20,640 nucleotides of DNA, taken from a virus. Position numbers and translations under genes: made by a program. Numbering within the stretch: position 1 is the stretch's first letter; each line of letters starts with the position of its first letter. Below, piece after piece: positions 6,171-20,379 of the stretch. The stretch lies in IMG/VR virus record IMGVR_UViG_3300031269_000106, positions 1-20,640 of that record, one strand, 5' to 3'. Under the pieces are notes generated by a model. It was not told the DNA's origin and searched no databases. It saw only the letters and a list, made by a program, of their open reading frames with translations.

Positions 6171-8180
6171 AGCGGGCCGCGCCGTATTCCGAACGATTGA
6201 CTCAATAACCCGCCGCTGAATCTGTCCACTGGCATCTTGACGCAAGGCGGGCGCGAGAGCCGCCATTGGGTCTGTGGAAAGCAACGCCCTTGCGATAAGC
6301 TGGCGCGTTGCCTCGGTTTGCCCCCTTGCAGCTGGGCCGAGCGTTGCCATGATTTGAGCGACAGCATCGCCCATCTGGAAGTTAGCGCCCTTTTGAGCCG
6401 CAGCCAGTAGCCCGCCGGACGCCGAATTGGCGCGCTCTATGTCTTGCAGATTGTCAGCGGTTTTGGACCCGCGAAGAGCGGTATTCTGCGTTTCCCACAT
6501 GGTGCCTTCCCGCCCGAGACGGCGCGCATACTGCTCTGGGTCAAGCGCCATGGCCCGCGCTTCCGCATCCATCTTAGGGCTGCGTACTGTTTTGGCGCTG
6601 TTCGCCGTTGGTGCTTTGTTGGCCTCAATCTGCGCTTGCATCTTGCCGCCGTATCCAAGGCGCGCGGCTTGCTGCTGGTCAGGCGTCATGGCCCCAAATT
6701 GCTGCGTCGTGTCCGCCGCCCGGCGCTCGCCGCGCATCATCCCCGCGCCCTCGTTGATTGCGCCTATTTCTTGCGACCGCGTGCGGAACCCGTCATTTGC
6801 GGCGCGATACATGTCAGATGATTGCTCCAACGCGCCGTCCAGTTCGTTCATCAGCTTGCCCAACTCGCGCGCCTCGTTGTTTCGGCCCGCGCGAACAGCC
6901 GCGCCAATATCATCCTGCACTGATTGCTTGACGCCCAAAACGCGGTCAAAATCGCTCAACTCGCGCGAGATTTCGCCATCAGGCGATCTTTCTGCCACAA
7001 GCCTGCGCCGATACCCGGCCAGCTTGGCGTCGATGCCGTCACCTGTAACGCCGCTGCCCTGCATCCCGCCGATGCGGTCGTCAATCGCGCTCACTGCGCC
7101 GCGCACGTCCACCGGCGCAGCATTGCCCCGCGCCGCGCCATAGTCTCGGTCCGCCGCAGTTGATCGCTCGGCCCTCATGCTGTCCTCGGCTTGGGCTGCT
7201 GTTCTGCCTTGCATCCCGAAAGCATCATCGACAAACCCGCCAACGCGCTCGGGCTGGCCCCGCTGCCGCATTTCCAAAAACTCCGCAATCTCGCGCGCTG
7301 CGTCGCTGTCACCACCGCGCACAATGCCGTTTGCCGTGCGCTGGCCCGACATCCCAAGGGCGTCCATTAAGCGGAATTCAGGTTGCCCATCACTAAGCGC
7401 GCGGGCCAGATCGTCCGCAACTTGGCTTGGTTGTCTCCCGCTGCCTTCGAATGTAGATGCAATTGCGCGGTTTGCCTTGCCCGTGTTGGCGCGGTTTAGG
7501 GCCATGTCAAATAGGCCTGAAATTGGGTCAGATACGCCGCGCGCCACCCTTGATCCGGCGGCGACCCCAACGGGAGCGGCGCCACCAAGAATCGTCCCCA
7601 GCAATCCGCCCATTGCAGCACTCTTACCCGTTTCTACGCCGTCCGCACTGCCCGCGCCCGCAATCGCTCCCTCAACCCCGCCGATGCCCATGCCGCGCAG
7701 CACAGTGCCGAGAAGCCCTCTGCCTGTCGCGGCGGGCAAAGCCGCCAAAGACGTGCCGACCATGCCGCCAATATTTCCAGCGCCAAAGGATGCTGGGTTA
7801 GCATCGCGTGACCGACCAAGCCGCGCGCGCTCTGCGTCCCTGCCTTCCGCATACCGGCTGCCCATTGTGCCGGAATAATCGCCAAAGGTGCTGGTTCCGT
7901 CCGGTTGGGCCTGCACTCCCATCAACGCCGAACGCACACCAGAAAGGTTGTCTCCAAGGTTAAATTTGGCACCCTCTACGGCACCGTCAAATGCGCTGCC
8001 GATGCTGCTGCCCAATTCAGCAACAGCCGCGCTGTTGGTCGCAGACCCGCCTTGTGGCGTATCCGGGAACCCCATGCCTCGCTGTGTTTTGTATTGGGCA
8101 AGCGCATTCTGCATCACCTCCCGGCTAGTCCCCTCGGGAAACTCAACAATCGTGCCGTCTGGCATTTCAATTTCGATCAT
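6162..8180 (-). CDS. Large internal virion / DNA-ejection protein
   Basis: 672 residues. The N-terminus EIEMPDGTIVEFPEGTSREV is a short module I know from the start of large internal virion proteins of podoviruses, followed by a region rich in Gly, Ala and Ser (about 60-240) with hydrophobic glycine-rich stretches such as GGLLGTILGGAAPVGVAAG. The remainder is helical and charged with many Arg, Asp and Glu. No catalytic motif is visible. The start ATG at 8180 overlaps the upstream stop by ATGA and has GGGAG just before it. It is the last gene of the long operon, next to the transglycosylase-like protein, which is the arrangement of T7 gp15/gp16 and P22 ejection genes. The likely job is to leave the head and help DNA cross the cell envelope; this is inferred. 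Confidence 0.75.
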   Translation of the reverse strand: MIEIEMPDGTIVEFPEGTSREVMQNALAQYKTQRGMGFPDTPQGGSATNSAAVAELGSSIGSAFDGAVEGAKFNLGDNLSGVRSALMGVQAQPDGTSTFGDYSGTMGSRYAEGRDAERARLGRSRDANPASFGAGNIGGMVGTSLAALPAATGRGLLGTVLRGMGIGGVEGAIAGAGSADGVETGKSAAMGGLLGTILGGAAPVGVAAGSRVARGVSDPISGLFDMALNRANTGKANRAIASTFEGSGRQPSQVADDLARALSDGQPEFRLMDALGMSGQRTANGIVRGGDSDAAREIAEFLEMRQRGQPERVGGFVDDAFGMQGRTAAQAEDSMRAERSTAADRDYGAARGNAAPVDVRGAVSAIDDRIGGMQGSGVTGDGIDAKLAGYRRRLVAERSPDGEISRELSDFDRVLGVKQSVQDDIGAAVRAGRNNEARELGKLMNELDGALEQSSDMYRAANDGFRTRSQEIGAINEGAGMMRGERRAADTTQQFGAMTPDQQQAARLGYGGKMQAQIEANKAPTANSAKTVRSPKMDAEARAMALDPEQYARRLGREGTMWETQNTALRGSKTADNLQDIERANSASGGLLAAAQKGANFQMGDAVAQIMATLGPAARGQTEATRQLIARALLSTDPMAALAPALRQDASGQIQRRVIESIVRNTARPALN

Positions 8181-9862
8181 TCAATCGCTCCCGTTTCAGG
8201 GTTAAACTTGAACCGTTGGGGCGAAGTCTTTCCAATCGCGGGCCTGTCGCCAAACTTCACCTGTCCGTCATCATCCAGCGCCCACGTCCCTTGCCCGTAT
8301 GCGGTATCAAGCATGACCTCGCGGAATTTTCGAGCCGCGCGCAGGTATTCGGTTTTGCTGGTATATGATGACATCGACGTAGCCGCGATGCCGATAGCCT
8401 CACGTTCGCTGTCAGTTAGCTGCCCAACCGCGCCGCCTGTCGGGCTGTTGTCCCGCATGTTTTGGACTTCATCCAAAGCCGCGCGCGTTTGGATTTGCTG
8501 TGTTCGGTTGTTGAAGTCGGATGCCTGACTGCCGGGGATCTTTGCCCCCATCGCGCCGATCACGCCTGTAACAGGAACCCCGCCATCTTCCAGTTCCTTG
8601 ATGTTCAAATCAAGACTTCTAAGCGTTGTCCCCATCTTGATGCCGGATTGGCGCTCGGTTTCGAGGCCCTTCTGCTCTAGTGCTCGACTTTCAGTAGCCG
8701 CGCCGCTGCCCGGAATAAGCTCGTCAACCCACGTCCCCAACTCTGCGTCCCATCGGCGCTGGAAGTCCTTAGACGGCTTGTCTGCCATTGGCCTACTGTC
8801 TGGCTGCTCGCCGGTGTTGACCGTCGTGCTGATGTTAGGCGCCGCCGCCGATGCCCCGCTGTTTTGCCAGTCCTGAAGGCTGCCCCGATACCCTTGCGAT
8901 CTGGCGAATTCATATTCCTGCATATCGCTTGTGGGCTTTACCGGCTCTGGATTCGCCGCCTTGTAGACTTGCTCCACGCTTATCGCGCCACCGTCAAACG
9001 CGCCCAGGTGTTGCGGGCTGTTCTGCTCGATCCATCCGCGCGCCTGTGCGCGCATCTGCGCCGCGCGCTGTTGCTCGGCCTGCCTCTTGGCGCTGTCAGC
9101 GTCGATACGCTGCTGCTGTAGGGCTGTATCGCGACCGAACTGAGTATCCCCCGCCGCCGATGCCCTGCGGCCATCCATGCGGCCCATGGCAGCGTTGTAG
9201 ACGCCTTGGTTGTTGACGCCCTGCATCCCTGCCAGACCTGCGCGGATACTGTCGGCACGATCCGGCGACATATTCTTGAAAATCATGCCCAGCAATCCGC
9301 CGACATTTTCTTCGGCTGGCTTGAATCGGCCCAGAAGTCCGCCCGGTTGTTCCATTGTGTCCGCTCCCTGTGTGCCTGCCATCGTAGAAGACCCGCCTTG
9401 TGGGCCTAATGCGCCGCCCTGTGGCGCCCCGCGCGACTGACCGCCATGCGCGCCCGCGTAGTCCGAAAGACTGGTCCCGAATGAATCAGACGGATTATAG
9501 CGCCCGCCGGTCTGCACGTATTTCCGCGCGCCGCCCGCGCCGCCGAGATGCCCCATTGCGACCAGAGAACCCATGTCCAGCGCCCTGCCGTTCACGACTG
9601 ATCCGACCAGTGGGCCGAGGTTCTTTTCTAAGTCCGCAAAGTGCCAGTTTTCCGCCGCCACTTGTAATTCAGGGGACGCCATAAACTGCTGTGGCGTTAC
9701 GCCTTGTGGAATGGCCCCTGCGTTCATTGCGTCTTGCAGCCGGGCCTGCCCAAACTGCACGCGGCCAAAGTGTCCAGCCTTCCCGCCAGCGCCCATTTCG
9801 CTATTTTGCGCACCCCAATTCCCGCCACTTTCAGACTGGATCAGCGAGTCAAGATAGCCCAT
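8177..9862 (-). CDS. Virion-associated lytic-transglycosylase-like protein
   Basis: 561 residues from ATG at 9862, which has AAAGGA at a good distance; a GTG at 9868 is also in frame. The N-terminal 110 residues look like a lysozyme-fold transglycosylase: LDSLIQSESGGNWGAQN with candidate catalytic Glu11, then HFGRVQFGQARLQDAM, and AMGHLGGAGGARKYV near 105-120. The rest (about 130-561) is Gly/Gln/Ala-rich and then helical, without a recognised domain. Such proteins ride in the virion and open a local hole in peptidoglycan during DNA entry, like T7 gp16. Position among other ejection candidates fits. It could instead be a structural relic of the enzyme, since I cannot check the full active site. 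Confidence 0.75.
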   Translation of the reverse strand: MGYLDSLIQSESGGNWGAQNSEMGAGGKAGHFGRVQFGQARLQDAMNAGAIPQGVTPQQFMASPELQVAAENWHFADLEKNLGPLVGSVVNGRALDMGSLVAMGHLGGAGGARKYVQTGGRYNPSDSFGTSLSDYAGAHGGQSRGAPQGGALGPQGGSSTMAGTQGADTMEQPGGLLGRFKPAEENVGGLLGMIFKNMSPDRADSIRAGLAGMQGVNNQGVYNAAMGRMDGRRASAAGDTQFGRDTALQQQRIDADSAKRQAEQQRAAQMRAQARGWIEQNSPQHLGAFDGGAISVEQVYKAANPEPVKPTSDMQEYEFARSQGYRGSLQDWQNSGASAAAPNISTTVNTGEQPDSRPMADKPSKDFQRRWDAELGTWVDELIPGSGAATESRALEQKGLETERQSGIKMGTTLRSLDLNIKELEDGGVPVTGVIGAMGAKIPGSQASDFNNRTQQIQTRAALDEVQNMRDNSPTGGAVGQLTDSEREAIGIAATSMSSYTSKTEYLRAARKFREVMLDTAYGQGTWALDDDGQVKFGDRPAIGKTSPQRFKFNPETGAIE

Positions 9863-9864
9863 GA

Positions 9865-10236
9865 TCACATTCCTTTAAAGAAGTTGCCGATTTTGGAAAG
9901 GTTCCCGCCGCCTTCAAACGCGCCGCCCGACTTGCCCATGCCGCCGCCATCGAACATATCGCCAATGCCACTGAATCCGCGAAATCCGCCAGAAAACTCT
10001 GGCCCGCTTGCGCCCGGCCCGCCGCCGTTGAACATATCAAGGCCGTTGGTAAAGCCACCATAGCTAGGCTGTTCGGGCTGTTGCTGTTGGCCGCCCATCA
10101 TCTGCGTAATGACTTCGTAAAGCGCGGGATTGCTTTGCTGCAATGCCTGCAATGCTTGGGGGTCTATGCCCCGCTGGCCCATAGATTGTTGCTGCTGCTG
10201 CTGCTGCGGTTGCTGAAACATATTGAGGATGCCCAT
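9865..10236 (-). CDS. Gly/Gln-rich small virion-like protein, unknown function
   Basis: 123 residues, start ATG overlapping the upstream stop as TGATG. The N-terminal part has a run of seven Gln (QQPQQQQQQQ) and more Gln near 70; the C-terminal half is rich in Gly, Phe and Met (GFTNGLDMFNGGGPGASG, GGFRGFSGIGDMF). There is no recognised domain. Its final codons overlap by GTGA the region of the next gene's start. Low complexity of this sort is shared with the flanking ejection genes, so I place it as a minor virion or ejection component by context only. Confidence 0.65.
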   Translation of the reverse strand: MGILNMFQQPQQQQQQQSMGQRGIDPQALQALQQSNPALYEVITQMMGGQQQQPEQPSYGGFTNGLDMFNGGGPGASGPEFSGGFRGFSGIGDMFDGGGMGKSGGAFEGGGNLSKIGNFFKGM

Positions 10237-12125
10237 CAGAGGAATATCGACGCTATATCAAGCAGGCCCGGCGTTGACTTGGATTCTTCACTGACTGGCG
10301 ATGGAACGCCGCCTATCGCCGCCAAAAGCCGCGACAAAGCATCGTCGCTAAAGTTTGTGTCTGCCATCGTTTGATCCTTTGCCAAGTCAATGATTTGCTG
10401 AATTAAGCCTTGCTGCATGTTGCCCGCGCCCATTTGTGCATCAAGCGCCGATTGGCCGCGCGTAAAGCCCATGTTTGACAATCCTGCCAAATAGGATGCG
10501 TTTTGCGAACGCTGTTGATTCGTTGAAAGAGAATTCCGAGCGTTCGCCAGCTGGGCTTCCAGTTGTGCGCTTTGATTCCTTTGGTCAGCGCTTAGAGTGT
10601 TGCCAATGTTTTGGAACGCAGTGTTCCGATCCATATCAAGCGCCGCAAGAGAATTCCGAGCGTTTGCCTGTTGGGCTTCCAGTTGTGCGCTTTGATTCCT
10701 TTGGTCAGCGCTTAGAGTGTTGCCAATGTTTTGGAACGCAGCGTTCCTATCTGAATCAAGCGCTGATTGGCCGCGCGTAAAGCCCATGTTTGACAATCCT
10801 GCCAAATAGGATGCGTTTTGCGAACGCTGTTGATTCGTTGAAAGAGAATTCCGAGCGTTCGCCAGCTGGGCTTCCAGTTGTGCGCTTTGATTCCTTTGGT
10901 CAGCGCTTAGAGTGTTGCCAATGTTTTGGAACGCAGCGTTCCTATCTGAATCAAGCGCTGATTGGCCCCGCATAAAGCCCATATCTGCCACATTAGCCAG
11001 CGCCGACGCGTTCTGCGTACTCTGCTGATTCGCCGCAAGCGAATTCTGAGCGTTCGCCAGAGAAGACTGCAATTTCGCGCTTTGATTCCCTTGGTCTGCG
11101 CTTAGGGTGTTGGCAATGTCCTGAAACGCGGCGCCCTGAGCCTGCATGAAGTTATCGGAATTCAGCCCCGCTGCTGTGCGCGCCGCAATGTCGCCGAAGC
11201 CTCTGTTTGTTTCCGCCTGCATGACGCCTTGTCGAGATCCGCCGAACGCGCCAGACGCTGCCGAATTGGTCTGATTCATCGCAATTTGGCGCTGGCGGTT
11301 TAGTTCGCTCATCGTCGTGTCGATCACGCCGCTGGTAAACGGATTCATATAAGGGTTCAGATCAGTTTCGCTTACCTGCCCGGCCCGCACGTCTCCCGCC
11401 TCAACCGGTGCGGATGGGGGCCGGGCCGCTATGTTGTTAAGCATATCTCCAGATTGCCTTAAAAACCCCTGTGACTGGTCGAAGATATTGCCAATTTGGC
11501 GCTGGCGGCCCGGACCGCTCATCGCACTGTCGCTATACTGTCCAGCCTGCACGTTTTGCGAGCCGATCTGAGGCAGTTGGGTCTGACCAGCCAATCCGCT
11601 GAACACATTGCCTGCTTGCGTATAAAACCCCTGTGACTGGTCGAAGATATTGCCAATTTGGCGCTGGCGGCCCGGACCGCTCATCGCACTGTCGCTATAC
11701 TGTCCAGCCTGCACGTTTTGCGGACCGATCTGAGGCAGTTGGGTCTGACCAGCCGAATACTGTCCAGCCTGCACGTTTTGCGAGCCGATCTGAGGCAGTT
11801 GGGTCTGACCAGCCAATCCGCTGAACACATTGCCTGCTTGCGTATAAAACCCCTGTGACTGGTCAAAGATATTTTGTTGCGGTGGCTGTTGCTGCTGTTG
11901 CTGCGACTGGGAAAACTTCCCGGCCTCGGCGCTGCCCATGATGTCATTGCGGATCATATCAAACGACGATCCGCCATCCAGCGCGCTTTGGTAAAACGAC
12001 ATACCCGCATCATCCGGCGCGCGGCCAAGGGCGCTCTGGTACAGCGCGGCAAGGTTATTTGCAGGCATTTGCTGTTGGCCCATTGCGCCCGATTGCTGTG
12101 TTTGGCCGAATTGAGGTGTGAACAT
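10236..12125 (-). CDS. DUF4214 protein with long internal repeats, probable virion/ejection protein
   Basis: 629 residues. Near the N-terminus, about residues 23-69, LYQSALGRAPDDAGMSFYQS and the following GSSFDMIRNDIMGSAEA match the DUF4214 domain seen in surface-layer and secreted proteins. A Gln tract follows (about 73-84). Then come copies of a unit containing GNIFDQSQGFYTQAGNVFSG and GQTQLPQIGSQNVQAGQYS (about 84-225), a middle part, and copies of an Asn/Gln/Ser/Ala-rich unit with RGQSALDSDRNAAFQNIGNT and LSADQRNQSAQLEAQLANAR (about 330-590). No transmembrane helix or enzyme motif is visible. It starts directly after the upstream TAA with AAGGGA as ribosome site. Position suggests an ejected or tail-associated virion protein, perhaps fibrous or helical; the role is inferred. 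Confidence 0.75.
   Translation of the reverse strand: MFTPQFGQTQQSGAMGQQQMPANNLAALYQSALGRAPDDAGMSFYQSALDGGSSFDMIRNDIMGSAEAGKFSQSQQQQQQPPQQNIFDQSQGFYTQAGNVFSGLAGQTQLPQIGSQNVQAGQYSAGQTQLPQIGPQNVQAGQYSDSAMSGPGRQRQIGNIFDQSQGFYTQAGNVFSGLAGQTQLPQIGSQNVQAGQYSDSAMSGPGRQRQIGNIFDQSQGFLRQSGDMLNNIAARPPSAPVEAGDVRAGQVSETDLNPYMNPFTSGVIDTTMSELNRQRQIAMNQTNSAASGAFGGSRQGVMQAETNRGFGDIAARTAAGLNSDNFMQAQGAAFQDIANTLSADQGNQSAKLQSSLANAQNSLAANQQSTQNASALANVADMGFMRGQSALDSDRNAAFQNIGNTLSADQRNQSAQLEAQLANARNSLSTNQQRSQNASYLAGLSNMGFTRGQSALDSDRNAAFQNIGNTLSADQRNQSAQLEAQQANARNSLAALDMDRNTAFQNIGNTLSADQRNQSAQLEAQLANARNSLSTNQQRSQNASYLAGLSNMGFTRGQSALDAQMGAGNMQQGLIQQIIDLAKDQTMADTNFSDDALSRLLAAIGGVPSPVSEESKSTPGLLDIASIFL
10450..11160. repeat. 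Direct repeats inside the DUF4214 gene (set A)
   Basis: The segment 10450-10621 recurs at 10765-10936, by eye identical over about 172 bp and 315 bp (105 codons) apart. A shortened, slightly changed copy lies at about 10648-10741, and more diverged copies lie at about 10970-11160. All are in frame, encoding the SALDSDRNAAFQNIGNTLSA type unit. The sharp joint in the short copy suggests recombination or slippage between units. Confidence 0.9.
11466..11880. repeat. Direct repeats inside the DUF4214 gene (set B)
   Basis: A unit starting cccctgtgactggtc occurs at 11466, 11628 and 11850, so the first period is 162 bp (54 codons). The second period is 222 bp because an extra 60 bp sub-unit (about 11700-11815, tactgtccagcctgcacg) is present. 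It encodes repeated GQTQLPQIG(S/P)QNVQAGQYS. All lengths are multiples of three, so the frame is kept. Confidence 0.88.
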
Positions 12126-12584
12126 TTACTTATCCCTTCCCTCCATGAAGTAACCCGGCTCACCGAAGCGCGCTGGCCCGGCGTTTGACATAGGTTGCCC
12201 TTGCTGCGCCCCCTGCGGGTCCATCCCGCCGCCCGTCAGCGCTCGAAGAGCCGCGAAAAGGTCCGGGTTTGCCTTCTGAAACATATCCATGTTGTTTTGG
12301 TAAAGAGGCTGTGAGGAATGACCGAAAACGCCGCCTCCAAAGTCTGTTGGCTCCGGTAAGTGCTGTTTCTGCGTGGGCAGCCCCAAAGACTGCGCCATAA
12401 GGTTGCTGCCTTCCATTGCCTGCATCTGCATGGGGTTAAACGCAGCTACCTCTGGCCCGTAAAATGGCGCAAACCCCAGTTTGTTGCGACCTTGTGCAAG
12501 GCCGATTGCGTCCTTTGATGCGTCCTCGATATACTTAGGCACCGACGCTTGCGTTGATTCGCTTCCTGATAATCCGTCAACCAT
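12126..12584 (-). CDS. Unknown virion-region protein, 152 aa
   Basis: 152 residues starting at an ATG that overlaps the upstream TAA as TAATG. I recognise no domain. The N-terminal third has YIEDASKDAIGLAQGRNKLG followed by PFYGPEVAAFNPMQMQAMEG. That last pattern (tyrosine-proline motif then a helix rich in Met and Gln) is common in small phage virion proteins placed before ejection proteins. The C-terminal half is Gly/Gln/Pro-rich. No signal or membrane segment. It lies between the gp13-like protein and the DUF4214 protein, so a role in the ejection apparatus or as its assembly partner is plausible but unproven. Confidence 0.65.
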   Translation of the reverse strand: MVDGLSGSESTQASVPKYIEDASKDAIGLAQGRNKLGFAPFYGPEVAAFNPMQMQAMEGSNLMAQSLGLPTQKQHLPEPTDFGGGVFGHSSQPLYQNNMDMFQKANPDLFAALRALTGGGMDPQGAQQGQPMSNAGPARFGEPGYFMEGRDK

Positions 12585-12934
12585 TAAAGTGACCTTTCCA
12601 TTGTGACGGTGGTTTCGCGCCAGCCGCGTTTATTCAGAATACGCCGCCAGCCGCGCCGCCCGTTTTGTGTCATTGCCGTGCAGCCCTGCGCCTTTGCCCA
12701 GATCGCCGCCGCTTGCTCCATTTGCTCAAGCTCCGCGATGTCGCCTGCCGCGCAAAGTACGTGGCAAACCTTTTTGCCTGGCCTGTCGAATATTTGCGTG
12801 ATTGCAACCGAACGCTGCCCCGGCCAGACCTGCATCCGGCCCGCCTTTACGGCGTCCTGTATTTCGTCTGCCGTGTGCGGCCCGCGCCTGATAGCTTTGG
12901 CGAGAAGCGCGGTTAAGTCACGCACGCCGTTCAA
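12584..12934 (-). CDS. T7 gp13-like / GNAT-like small phage protein
   Basis: Up to 116 residues. The pattern WPGQRSVAITQI, then VCHVLCAAGDIAELEQMEQA, AIWAKAQGCTAMTQNGRRGW and ILNKRGW resembles a family of small phage proteins with an acetyltransferase-like fold that includes T7 gp13 (DUF2833, PF11090, from memory). T7 gp13 is needed for proper virion assembly; whether this protein has enzyme activity is unknown. The start is uncertain: TTG at 12934 or GTG at 12925. Neither has a strong ribosome site, and both overlap the end of the previous gene, so coupled translation is likely. Its neighbour downstream starts at a TAATG overlap. The family assignment is moderate. Confidence 0.65.
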   Translation of the reverse strand: MNGVRDLTALLAKAIRRGPHTADEIQDAVKAGRMQVWPGQRSVAITQIFDRPGKKVCHVLCAAGDIAELEQMEQAAAIWAKAQGCTAMTQNGRRGWRRILNKRGWRETTVTMERSL

Positions 12935-16764: not shown

Positions 16765-17367
16765 TTATCTCCGCGCCGGGATTACGAGGGTGCCACCCCA
16801 CTGACCGGCATTGTCAGCGGCGTTCAGGTTTGAAACCGCTGCAGAATACAGCCCGGACCACGTTTGAAGCCGCATGTCCTCGACTAGAAACGGTGCTGCG
16901 TGGATCAGCGAGCCATAAAGGTACGCATCTGGCGCTACCTCCAGCAACCAATTCGTCGGGGCCGCATCCGATAGCGCCGGGATCTTGCGGTAGTATTGCA
17001 GCGTGCCGGTGTAGCTATCGGCGGGCGTTGGGAATACCTCCACCTGCACGCCCATCGGAGCGTAGTTTCGAGGCTGGCCGCCTGCGGTGCCTTTGTCGCG
17101 CCGGTCAATCATGTCGTCTGTGCTGATGGCAGTCAGGCGGTTGCCGTCGCAGTCCAGCCGAATAGTTTTGATGTGGTCAGCGGGCAGATCAACGAACCGC
17201 GCGGCAATCGTTAGATCAGCGCTCGCCACCATGCTGCGGTGCCGCACATCGCGCTGGAATTGAGCCTCTGCGATTGTGATGAAGTCTTTGACCACCGCAG
17301 TCAGGTCGTCCCGGTCAAGCCATGACGCGATGGACGCTTGCAGTTCTGCGAATGTCGATAAGGCCAT
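16765..17367 (-). CDS. Head-tail adaptor protein (SU10 / gp6-like)
   Basis: 200 residues. The helical N-terminus MALSTFAELQASIASWLDRD, with FITIAEAQFQRDVRHRSM, and the C-terminal part TGTLQYYRKIPALSD, NWLLEVAPDAYLYGSLIHAA, LVEDMRLQTW are typical of phage adaptor proteins of the SU10 type. The adaptor ring sits beneath the portal and links it to the nozzle. Its ATG overlaps the upstream stop as TAATG with AAGGTGG ahead. Together with the SU10-type capsid and P22/SU10-like portal 11-15 kb away, this supports a shared head-connector origin even though the genes are now separated. Confidence 0.85.
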   Translation of the reverse strand: MALSTFAELQASIASWLDRDDLTAVVKDFITIAEAQFQRDVRHRSMVASADLTIAARFVDLPADHIKTIRLDCDGNRLTAISTDDMIDRRDKGTAGGQPRNYAPMGVQVEVFPTPADSYTGTLQYYRKIPALSDAAPTNWLLEVAPDAYLYGSLIHAAPFLVEDMRLQTWSGLYSAAVSNLNAADNAGQWGGTLVIPARR

Positions 17368-18458
17368 TACGTACCACCTTCTTTGTCTGGCATGAACAGC
17401 GCCAATAAACCGCCGATGCTTGCCGAAAGGTTAGAAAGCTCTTTCAAGCGCGGGTCAAAGCGGGCGAAACGGCTGCGGATGTTGGCGGGGTCGAACGTGA
17501 CCCTTTCACCGGAATTGCTTATAACACCGCTGTATCCGTTCGCGCTCATTGCGTCAGCAGTGTTTGAAAAGCCTCCAACTATGGCTTCTGGCGTCATTGC
17601 GTCCATATTGTAAAAATCATCAGTCAATGCGTCCTCCCACTGCATTTTCCTAGCGTATGTTGCCGCCGCTGGCGTAACGATAGGGATTGTGCGCGCCCCA
17701 TCTGCTCCCCGGCCGACGGCATAATCTTGAACGTCCACGGCCTCGTCGCCGCTATAAACACCGCGCCCTGAAAGGCCTGTCTGGCTTGGCTTGAACTCTT
17801 GGAAGTCAGCATTTGTCGCGTGGTACTGCATGTCGCCGAACCCCATGCCCTCGGCTCGCGCTGTTCGGCTCGCTGCGTCCATCGGCATGTTCATGCCCGT
17901 AGCGCCGCTTTCGTACAGCCTAAACATTTCTTGCGGGTCAACACGCGCCATCATGTCGTCGGTTACATCAGCCGCATCGCCACGCTTTAGCATTTCAGCA
18001 ACTATCTGGGCTTCTGTCTGCACTGGGCCGCTCGGGGTTGACCCGCTTTGATCCGCTGCGAACCTCCTGCCCGCATCCGTTGCGGCCTCGCGCGGCATCG
18101 CGCCAATACCTAGAAGGCTGTCGATCACATCGCTTGCGCCCTTCGCGCTTGATCCTGCAATCCGCCCCGAAATAGCAGGTGCCAGAACAGCCGCCATGTC
18201 TGTTGCCATGCTTGCGCCTGAATCAAGCCGCTGCCGTGGTGTCCTGCCGGGTTCGAGCATTTCCTCGCTGGCCTGCATTGATCTGCCAATATCAGACACG
18301 GGGTTGAACATATCTAGTAGGCTCGCCGCTTTATCAACGTCAACGCCCGGTCCCGCAAAGTACTGCACGTGGTCCAGCAGCCCCTGAGCGAATTCGTCTA
18401 TCGCCGTGCGCCGCTTCTGGCCGGATTCCTTGCTCAATATGTTTTCGAGGATTCCCAT
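17367..18458 (-). CDS. Protein with C-terminal ADP-ribosyltransferase-like domain
   Basis: 363 residues, start ATG directly after the large terminase stop. The first ~150 residues are helical and Ala/Gly-rich with no domain I know. The C-terminal half has the order seen in ART-like domains of phage polyvalent proteins (ART-PolyVal type): QYHATNADFQEFKPSQTGLS with H213, GRGVYSGDEAVDVQDYA with Y235, and ANGYSGVISNSGERV with E319, then TFDPANIRSRFARFDP at 321-336. H, Y and E would form an H-Y-E-type active site. A short hydrophobic tail ISIGG-like segment (about 345-355) is near the end. If active, it would transfer ADP-ribose from NAD to a target; it may be packaged and injected. Function and target are inference. 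MuF-like or inactive structural roles are alternatives. Confidence 0.6.
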   Translation of the reverse strand: MGILENILSKESGQKRRTAIDEFAQGLLDHVQYFAGPGVDVDKAASLLDMFNPVSDIGRSMQASEEMLEPGRTPRQRLDSGASMATDMAAVLAPAISGRIAGSSAKGASDVIDSLLGIGAMPREAATDAGRRFAADQSGSTPSGPVQTEAQIVAEMLKRGDAADVTDDMMARVDPQEMFRLYESGATGMNMPMDAASRTARAEGMGFGDMQYHATNADFQEFKPSQTGLSGRGVYSGDEAVDVQDYAVGRGADGARTIPIVTPAAATYARKMQWEDALTDDFYNMDAMTPEAIVGGFSNTADAMSANGYSGVISNSGERVTFDPANIRSRFARFDPRLKELSNLSASIGGLLALFMPDKEGGT

Positions 18459-19952
18459 CTAAGCAATCCCCTGTAGGTTCCTGCGCGGCGGCGCCTTCCA
18501 TCCCGACTGGCGTTTGTAGCCCGTCGCAAATGTCATGTAGGCGTCTGCGCCGTTGCTGTTGATGTCGTGCAGCGGGCGGTCTTTCCAAACTCCGCGCCGA
18601 TCATCCCACTCTTTGCGGTAGTGCCTCAGCCGCTTGAGTCCCAACTCACAGGCTACCGCGTCAAAATCACTGTTCGGGAACGCTGAGCGGGCCGCTTCAA
18701 TCGCCAGGATCTTGTCAGACACGCGGGGAACGATTTTAGGCGTAAAGCCCATCGCCTTAACCTCGCCAAGCCGCCCATTCTCCAGAAACAGATCCTCGCG
18801 CGCGCCATCGTGAGGCCAGTAGTGGTCGCCCCATCCGGCTTCGCGCTGCTTGAGCCAGTCCTTGAGCCAGTTCAAATAGTGGCTGATGTGCTCTCCGCTG
18901 TTTTCATAATAGCCAATCCACCGGTCGCGCCCATTGATGTCCTGATGCAGCCAGATCGCCGTCTGGTCATTGCGCCCGAGATCCCAGAAGGTATTGACCT
19001 GGTGGCGCGGATCAAATGGAAATGCGCCAATGCCGTCGCGCTTGATCGTGTGCGCTATTTCTTGCTCGAAGTACGCGCCCTCAAGCGCCTGCTCAAAGGC
19101 CTCGCGCGGCGTGGCGGGGTATTCCCGCTTCATCTTGCCGCCCTGCGTCTTTTCCTGCTGGACCCACCAAGCCTGTTGGCCTGCGTTCAACTCTATGCCC
19201 TCGTCGTATTTGAGGTTCTCGAAGTATTTAGTGTCAGCTTCCGTGACCCGCACAAGCTCGGGCGCGGTTTGATAATCTGGATTGTCATACCAAGGGTAGA
19301 AGTGAATGCGCCAGTCAAGCGGGCTTAGAGCCTCGCCCTTGGCTTCCTTTTCAAGCGCCTCCTGCGTCATGCGGTAGAACGCGCCGTCTTGCCCTTCTGC
19401 GGTGCTTTCGATTGTGATGTGACCGTTTTCCGCAGCCGGGAACGATCCGCTGATGATCTCATCGGCCTTGTCCGGGTATCGCGCGCATATCTTGCCAAAT
19501 TCCGAAACGTGCAAGCGTTGCAGCGTGCCGCCGCGTGCGGATGATGTCACCACTACGCTGCTATTGTTCGCCATCGCCAGCGTGTCGGCTGCGTCATTAA
19601 CCAGCGGGCAGGCGATCTTGATGCCTTCCGGGAGGTTATCGTACGGGAACCGAACCTTTGTCTTGAGGATCTTCTGTGCGTCGGCCTTGGTGTGCGCGAT
19701 GATCGCAGCTGACCAGTTTGGCGTAAAAACGCATTCATCCAGCGCTACAATCGCGGCTAGCGTTGTGAAGCCAAGCTGGCGCGCTTTTAGCACGATGTCG
19801 CGGCCATGAATGTTCAGCAGATAGTCAAGCTGTTGAGGGTTGGGCGTGAACCGAATGACGTGGCCGCGCTTGTCTACGATGTCGTAGAGGTTGTGCAGCC
19901 GCCAAAGGGGATCGGCGAACTGACCTTTAATCTTCGCCGATACGTTTGCCAT
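18459..19952 (-). CDS. terL: Terminase large subunit
   Basis: About 497 residues; the ATP-driven motor and nuclease that packages DNA through the portal. Motifs (numbered from ATG 19952): adenine-binding NPQQLDYLL (about 38), Walker A-like KARQLGFTT at 56-64, Walker B-like RLHVSEF near 146-152, coupling motif IESTAEG near 181-187. Nuclease acidic residues: FWDLGRND with D324, WPHDGAR with D381, and NGADAYMTF with D470. It overlaps the small terminase gene by 26 nt. ATG 19952 has a weak GGCGGG nearby; ATG at 19964, which adds MWRA, is also in frame and has no ribosome site. The length is normal for the family. Confidence 0.93.
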   Translation of the reverse strand: MANVSAKIKGQFADPLWRLHNLYDIVDKRGHVIRFTPNPQQLDYLLNIHGRDIVLKARQLGFTTLAAIVALDECVFTPNWSAAIIAHTKADAQKILKTKVRFPYDNLPEGIKIACPLVNDAADTLAMANNSSVVVTSSARGGTLQRLHVSEFGKICARYPDKADEIISGSFPAAENGHITIESTAEGQDGAFYRMTQEALEKEAKGEALSPLDWRIHFYPWYDNPDYQTAPELVRVTEADTKYFENLKYDEGIELNAGQQAWWVQQEKTQGGKMKREYPATPREAFEQALEGAYFEQEIAHTIKRDGIGAFPFDPRHQVNTFWDLGRNDQTAIWLHQDINGRDRWIGYYENSGEHISHYLNWLKDWLKQREAGWGDHYWPHDGAREDLFLENGRLGEVKAMGFTPKIVPRVSDKILAIEAARSAFPNSDFDAVACELGLKRLRHYRKEWDDRRGVWKDRPLHDINSNGADAYMTFATGYKRQSGWKAPPRRNLQGIA

Positions 19953-20379
19953 TGCCCGCCACATGCTTGAGGAGTTCGATCATCGGGTCGGATATGTCGT
20001 GCTTGTTATCCACCTCAATCTTTTCGCCGTACACTTTGGGCCGCAGCTTACCCGCCATCCATTTGCGGGCGTCGATACGTAACCGGCTGCGTTGGATATG
20101 CTCGCCGTTCGCTTGCCAGCCCGCGTCCTCCTCGCCGTTGCGCTCCATCCAATCGTTTTGTGCATCGTCCGCAATAGTAAGGATTTCATCGAAGATGTGA
20201 TCGGCTTGGTCTGATCTCGCCCGCGCGTACTGGGCGACGAGAGTTTCATCCTTTGCGAGCCATTTCCTTACGCCATCGCGGTGCGGCATATCTTCATCTT
20301 CGCAGATTGCGCGCAGGCTTTCGCCATTAGCGATCCGCAGGCAGATTGCATCGAATACCTTTTGTGTGAATTTGACCAT
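19927..20379 (-). CDS. terS: Terminase small subunit (Sf6 gp1-like)
   Basis: 150 residues; binds the packaging site and regulates the large subunit. The N-terminal ~45 residues form a helix-turn-helix (AICLRIANGESLRAICEDED, HRDGVRKWLA). The middle is a helical oligomerisation region (ARARSDQADHIFDEILTIAD). The C-terminal SRLRIDARKWMAGKLRPKVY with GEK is the characteristic block of the Sf6 gp1-like small terminase family. GAGGTG lies 6 nt before ATG 20379. It is the first gene after the leader at the right end and overlaps terL. The site it cuts cannot be located from this window. Confidence 0.9.
   Translation of the reverse strand: MVKFTQKVFDAICLRIANGESLRAICEDEDMPHRDGVRKWLAKDETLVAQYARARSDQADHIFDEILTIADDAQNDWMERNGEEDAGWQANGEHIQRSRLRIDARKWMAGKLRPKVYGEKIEVDNKHDISDPMIELLKHVAGNGKRIGED

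Follow-up and report, generated by a model that had tools for sequence, protein, structure and literature searches.

An ART-PolyVal-type protein of a marine podovirus whose core is exchanged like a cassette between related phages

Results

The ART gene lies between the terminase and adaptor genes

The stretch of DNA analysed here (the window, 20,640 nucleotides) is a 20.6-kb virus record whose source phage is a marine podovirus. A gene for a protein with an ADP-ribosyltransferase (ART)-like domain is found among its packaging and connector genes, and the relevant features are the following.

19927..20379, minus strand: terminase small subunit (TerS); Pfam PF20901, E 8.7e-44
18459..19964, minus strand: TerL, directly upstream of the ART gene; PHROG phrog_2, E 7.7e-32; 55% identity with TerL as annotated in Octadecabacter DB virus 2
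17367..18458, minus strand: gene of the ART-PolyVal-type protein, 363 aa; open frame, Pfam PF18760 (E 2.7e-5), homologues
18018..18458, minus strand: N-terminal helical chassis, residues 1-147; helices in the model, recurs with other payloads in the relatives L008, L016 and L027
17826..18017, minus strand: conserved linker, residues 148-211 (AADVTDDMMARVDPQEMFRLYESGATG..MPMDAASR..RAEGMGF); alignment of 67 cores
17478..17825, minus strand: ART core cassette, residues 212-327, with H213, Y235, E318 and D323; Pfam, alignment, model, cassette clade
17367..17477, minus strand: conserved tail RS.FARFDPRL..L.NLSA and hydrophobic/polar C-terminus, residues 328-363 with the stop codon; alignment of 67 cores
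16765..17367, minus strand: SU10-type head-tail adaptor; Pfam PF24175, E 1e-31; 1-nt overlap with the ART stop codon
3892..5871, minus strand: SU10-type portal protein of the same late gene block; Pfam PF23899, E 3.9e-158

The ART gene starts with ATG, and the plus strand over 17367-18458 is full of stops. The TAG stop codon of TerL abuts this ATG without a gap, and the stop codon of the ART gene shares one base with the ATG of the adaptor gene (TAATG). The first-pass annotation had given the same coordinates and had placed the gene directly after the large terminase, within the packaging/connector block; the coordinates are correct, with the open frame on the minus strand, and both placements are borne out by TerS and TerL before the gene and the adaptor after it.

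A similar arrangement is seen in the relatives. The downstream ORF at 71 loci, some of which are near-duplicates, encodes the adaptor in 41 cases, the portal in seven and the scaffold in two, and the adaptor gene mostly overlaps by 1 or 4 nt. The sole annotated close relative is gp6 of the Octadecabacter Antarctic DB virus 2, a 39-kb podovirus. In HTVC106P, MJing1 and two uncultured phages with a related adaptor, no such ART gene precedes the adaptor gene, and other, mostly small genes occupy this site. Since these adaptor relatives lack it there, the ART gene is an accessory of the late operon and not essential to the connector.

Three further products are encoded on the minus strand of the window. 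A 563-aa protein (8177-9868) matches an endolysin PHROG at its N-terminus (E 1.2e-57) and another phage family at its C-terminus, and is likely, from these matches, an ejection protein that carries a peptidoglycan-cutting domain. The protein encoded at 10236-12125 contains long in-frame repeats (copies of NIFDQSQGFYTQAGNVFSGLAGQTQLPQIGSQNVQAGQYS...) and is possibly an internal virion or tail protein. In addition, a small late-block protein (12584-12934), kept in several relatives, is akin to DB virus 2 gp16, which is annotated as an acetyltransferase.

Profile match and predicted fold of the ART domain

The Pfam model ART-PolyVal (PF18760) matches residues 212-329 of the window protein with E 2.7e-5, covering profile positions 10-132 of 140; the score of 25.4 bits is below the curated gathering cut-off of 31.2. 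The same model matches 19 of 40 homologues, and some relatives exceed the cut-off (for example L042 and L060), but via a second ART copy. This is the only enzymatic domain recognised in the window protein, whereas relatives carry two or more. Searches of PDB sequences, with phmmer for the window protein and with a profile of the 40 homologues, returned nothing useful, and NCBIfam gave no relevant match.

An AlphaFold2 model built from 40 natural homologues has a pLDDT of about 80-93 over residues 206-332, with confident strands at 207-215, 225-228, 231-237, 256-263, 311-315 and 318-321. Aligned with VIA-align, residues 206-332 match ART-superfamily structures with Z of 6-9 (MbcT 8.7, ParT 8.3, Tpt1/KptA 8.1, PARP13 7.2, and also tankyrases), values that are middling on the program's own calibration and concordant with profile and motif. 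Foldseek ranks chain B of the cyanophage A4 pre-ejectosome first (PDB 9k3a; E 4.7e-3, Z 8.4), and predicted viral structures in BFVD named ART-PolyVal match with E 4.6e-5 to 2.9e-4. A relative with neither Y, E nor D in its ART core (L087) gave a low-confidence model without a match to any ART. The ART resemblance of the window protein is thus above chance, given the profile match, the 19 of 40 homologues and the predicted fold. The earlier proposal of an ART-like domain of the phage polyvalent-protein type, made from motif order and spacing, agrees with the PF18760 match, and the fold itself appears in the predicted structure.

Putative catalytic residues

H213 is located in YHAT on the strand 207-215 and Y235 in GRGVYSG on the strand 231-237; both had been assigned correctly at first pass, while the glutamate of GERVTFDPANIRSR is E318 and not E319. 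The corresponding minus-strand codons are 17820-17822 (H213), 17754-17756 (Y235), 17505-17507 (E318) and 17490-17492 (D323).

Conservation was counted over 67 distinct cores from viral contigs. The histidine is kept in 64 of them, position 235 is Y in 31, F in 16 and W in nine, E318 is E in only 20/67, and D323 is D in 39/67. At 50% identity the 67 proteins fall into 39 cassette types, four of which contain H, Y and E together. Because Y and E are often replaced across the wide family, some of its cassettes may be inactive.

The cassette clade of the window, after extension, comprises six distinct cassettes (window, L024, L025/L026, L028/L101, L100 and L102), which sit in dissimilar backbones with differing N-termini and middle segments. 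All six have HAT, GRG[VI]Y[ST]GD and GERVTF without exception, so that H213, Y235 and E318 are invariant, whereas the position of D323 is D, N or E. The proposed check on H/Y/E conservation in homologues therefore has a divided outcome, with frequent loss of Y235 and E318 in the wide family and full retention of all three residues in the clade of the window. From the invariance of H, Y and E, the ART domain of the window protein is probably catalytic, and from the invariance of E318 beside a varying D323, the third catalytic residue in this clade is likely to be E318. This is unlike the H-Y-D residues that PMC5512222 describes for the Tox-ART-HYD2 clade.

The ART core is exchanged between a constant linker and tail

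The window protein and its relatives have the linker (window residues 148-211) and the tail (328 onward) in common, and the sequence between them differs. Two motifs, FARFDPRL and VTDD.MA, served as seeds of the search, so their constancy carries no weight here. The exchange is evident in 73 pairs with an identity of 80% or more over the N-terminal 110 residues, pairs which are not independent because they were drawn from five chassis groups. Their ART-core identity is bimodal, with 48 pairs at 18-27% and 25 at 57-99% (nearly all 80-99%); the shuffled-sequence baseline is 17.8 +/- 3.0. Linker and tail identity across the same pairs is about 75-100%.

Sharp boundaries are also found at the nucleotide level. 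Between L032 and L044, identity is 93-100% along 700 nt upstream, drops to 7-53% within the core and is 77-98% after it, and L025/L091 and L002/L010 are further clean swaps. Conversely, L079 and L094 share an ART core that is 99% identical, while their N-termini are 25% identical. Exchange also affects the stretch preceding the linker, which is either absent or consists of a GNAT domain, a second ART, LPD23 with an HExxH stretch or a ParB-like domain. Queried by itself, the N-terminal 140-aa part found only a near-identical contig, and the search of genome contigs yielded two loci. A diversity-generating retroelement was considered as the source of variation and rejected, as core lengths differ (79-171 aa) and identity is about 20%.

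The ART core is thus swapped like a cassette between related phages, within constant ends. The first-pass annotation had described an Ala/Gly-rich part fused to an ART, of which the ART was right; the exchangeable chassis and the core swapping had been missed. This modularity, in which the ART core is exchanged rapidly and with sharp boundaries inside a constant linker and tail, is the new point, and no description of it was found in the accessible text of PMC5512222.

Two related arrangements were observed. In L079, the ART gene is immediately preceded by a gene (L079:6021-7649) for a protein whose first 98 residues are ~94-95% identical to many family N-termini and are followed by a different, unrecognised payload. 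Moreover, the linker-ART-tail unit forms the N-terminus of 1150-1920 aa proteins in L042, L046, L048, L058 and L059, which contain further ART, GNAT and peptidase M15/VanY domains.

Discussion

On balance, we favour the reading that the window protein belongs to the polyvalent-protein system as a reduced member with one enzyme, and is a late ART effector with an exchanged core that is probably packaged and ejected. Such a modular late protein of a short-tailed SU10-type phage would be made alongside the proteins of head and connector and would hold an ART core (H-Y-E active site, probably using NAD+) between a constant chassis plus linker and a short tail. It would be packaged in the virion and ejected with the DNA, with the constant parts as its packaging/ejection address, and would then ADP-ribosylate a host molecule, aiding take-over or blunting defence. 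Phages would exchange the ART core, and any additional enzyme domain, under arms-race selection. We infer the enzymatic activity, packaging, ejection and target of the window ART; delivery in the virion with the DNA is suggested by the late-operon position, and the cassette-like exchange of the catalytic part suggests a host-modifying protein carried in the virion. To this extent the packaged effector proposed at first pass is supported. No virion proteomics was found for family members, and the accessible text of the OANV2 paper reports none.

A connector or ejectosome structural or assembly protein that captured the ART fold for binding only, with catalysis lost in most members, seems rather unlikely to us. 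The gene precedes the adaptor or portal, Y and E are missing from many cassettes, and an ART-like fold occurs in the solved cyanophage A4 pre-ejectosome, all as this alternative would have it; however, the core is quickly replaced beside nearly identical neighbours, unlike a structural part, the exchanged partner domains are enzymes, and the site is without this gene in several related phages. The invariance of H-Y-E in the clade of the window, across dissimilar backbones, likewise argues against a loss of catalysis. We also consider it unlikely that the ART is expressed late and acts, unpackaged, in the producing cell, for example against host defence or superinfecting phages. T4 ModA and ModB act from inside the cell and offer a precedent, and a late-operon position is by itself no proof of packaging. 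Yet the N- and C-terminal parts stay constant as the enzyme changes, which suggests an address or docking role, and the published pattern favours the head: in PMC5512222 and PMC9503650, polyvalent-protein ARTs and ARTs adjoining terminase/portal genes are predicted to be packaged.

The best match among solved structures, the RES-type NAD+ phosphorylase MbcT (tied with ParT), raises the question of another NAD+-consuming enzyme with an ART fold, either a RES-type phosphorylase or an NADase. This is very improbable, as the profile match is to ART-PolyVal and to no RES family, and H-Y-E with the GERVTF strand resembles PARP-type ARTs such as PARP1. The combination of a constant carrier with a variable ART domain also recalls the toxin of a toxin-antitoxin or polymorphic-toxin locus. 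With TerL abutting before and the adaptor overlapping after, neither side leaves space for an immunity or antitoxin gene, and PADLOC gave no match; the chance of such a toxin is extremely slight.

The packaged and ejected effector might belong, as we propose tentatively, to a virion-delivered polymorphic effector system, in which the constant chassis, linker and tail would provide the packaging/ejection address and recombination would insert the 39 types of ART core seen in 67 proteins, together with second enzymes. If this holds, closely related phages would deliver different host-modifying activities. Polyvalent-protein ARTs are predicted injected effectors, yet they are big multi-domain proteins that are hard to test. 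The present family supplies small single-cassette versions in ~39-kb podoviruses, with at least one cultured relative. Natural swap pairs that differ mainly in the ART core make the host target of each core directly addressable, and also let one ask if the constant ends act as a transferable signal for ejection.

Comparison with known systems

The window protein resembles ART-PolyVal (PF18760; Tox-ART-HYD2 clade, Iyer et al. 2017, PMC5512222) in its profile match, H on strand 1, Y on strand 2 and late phage context, and its relatives have the same companions, namely GNAT, ParB, MPTase-like and LPD domains. It differs by its score below the curated cut-off and by its single enzymatic domain; polyvalent proteins have at least two unrelated functional domains each, and relatives of the window protein carry two or more domains. 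For the strand-5 Asp of the HYD type, the window protein has D323, a position that is D, N or E in its clade, whereas E318 is invariant there. DB virus 2 gp6 (MW805364, DB2_6, hypothetical protein) is of the same family (46% identity over residues 139-353) and likewise lies between the terminase genes and the adaptor. It has another N-terminal chassis, an added ParB-like middle segment and a different ART core, with Q at the E position, and two small genes separate it from TerL, whereas the window has none there.

T4 Alt, ModA and ModB are also phage ARTs, and Alt is packaged and ejected. They are R-S-E enzymes, in contrast to H213-Y235-E318 here, and no Alt-type profile (Pfam, PHROG) matches the window protein, so the likeness to them drawn at first pass is not supported. 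Polymorphic toxins (Rhs, CDI and the like) share the design of a constant carrier with an exchangeable enzymatic cassette; in the window family, the cassette is internal with a constant tail, has no immunity gene, and its carrier is in a phage late operon. MuF-fused effectors have a MuF domain in the same protein, while the window protein has no Pfam match to MuF at E up to 1. Cyanophage A4 pre-ejectosome chain B appears to have an ART-like part, aligned over 125 residues, in an internal virion complex; this chain is far larger (1071 modelled residues), and no sequence match to the window protein was found. Such a part would document, at the level of structure, that ART folds occur in virion proteins that are ejected.
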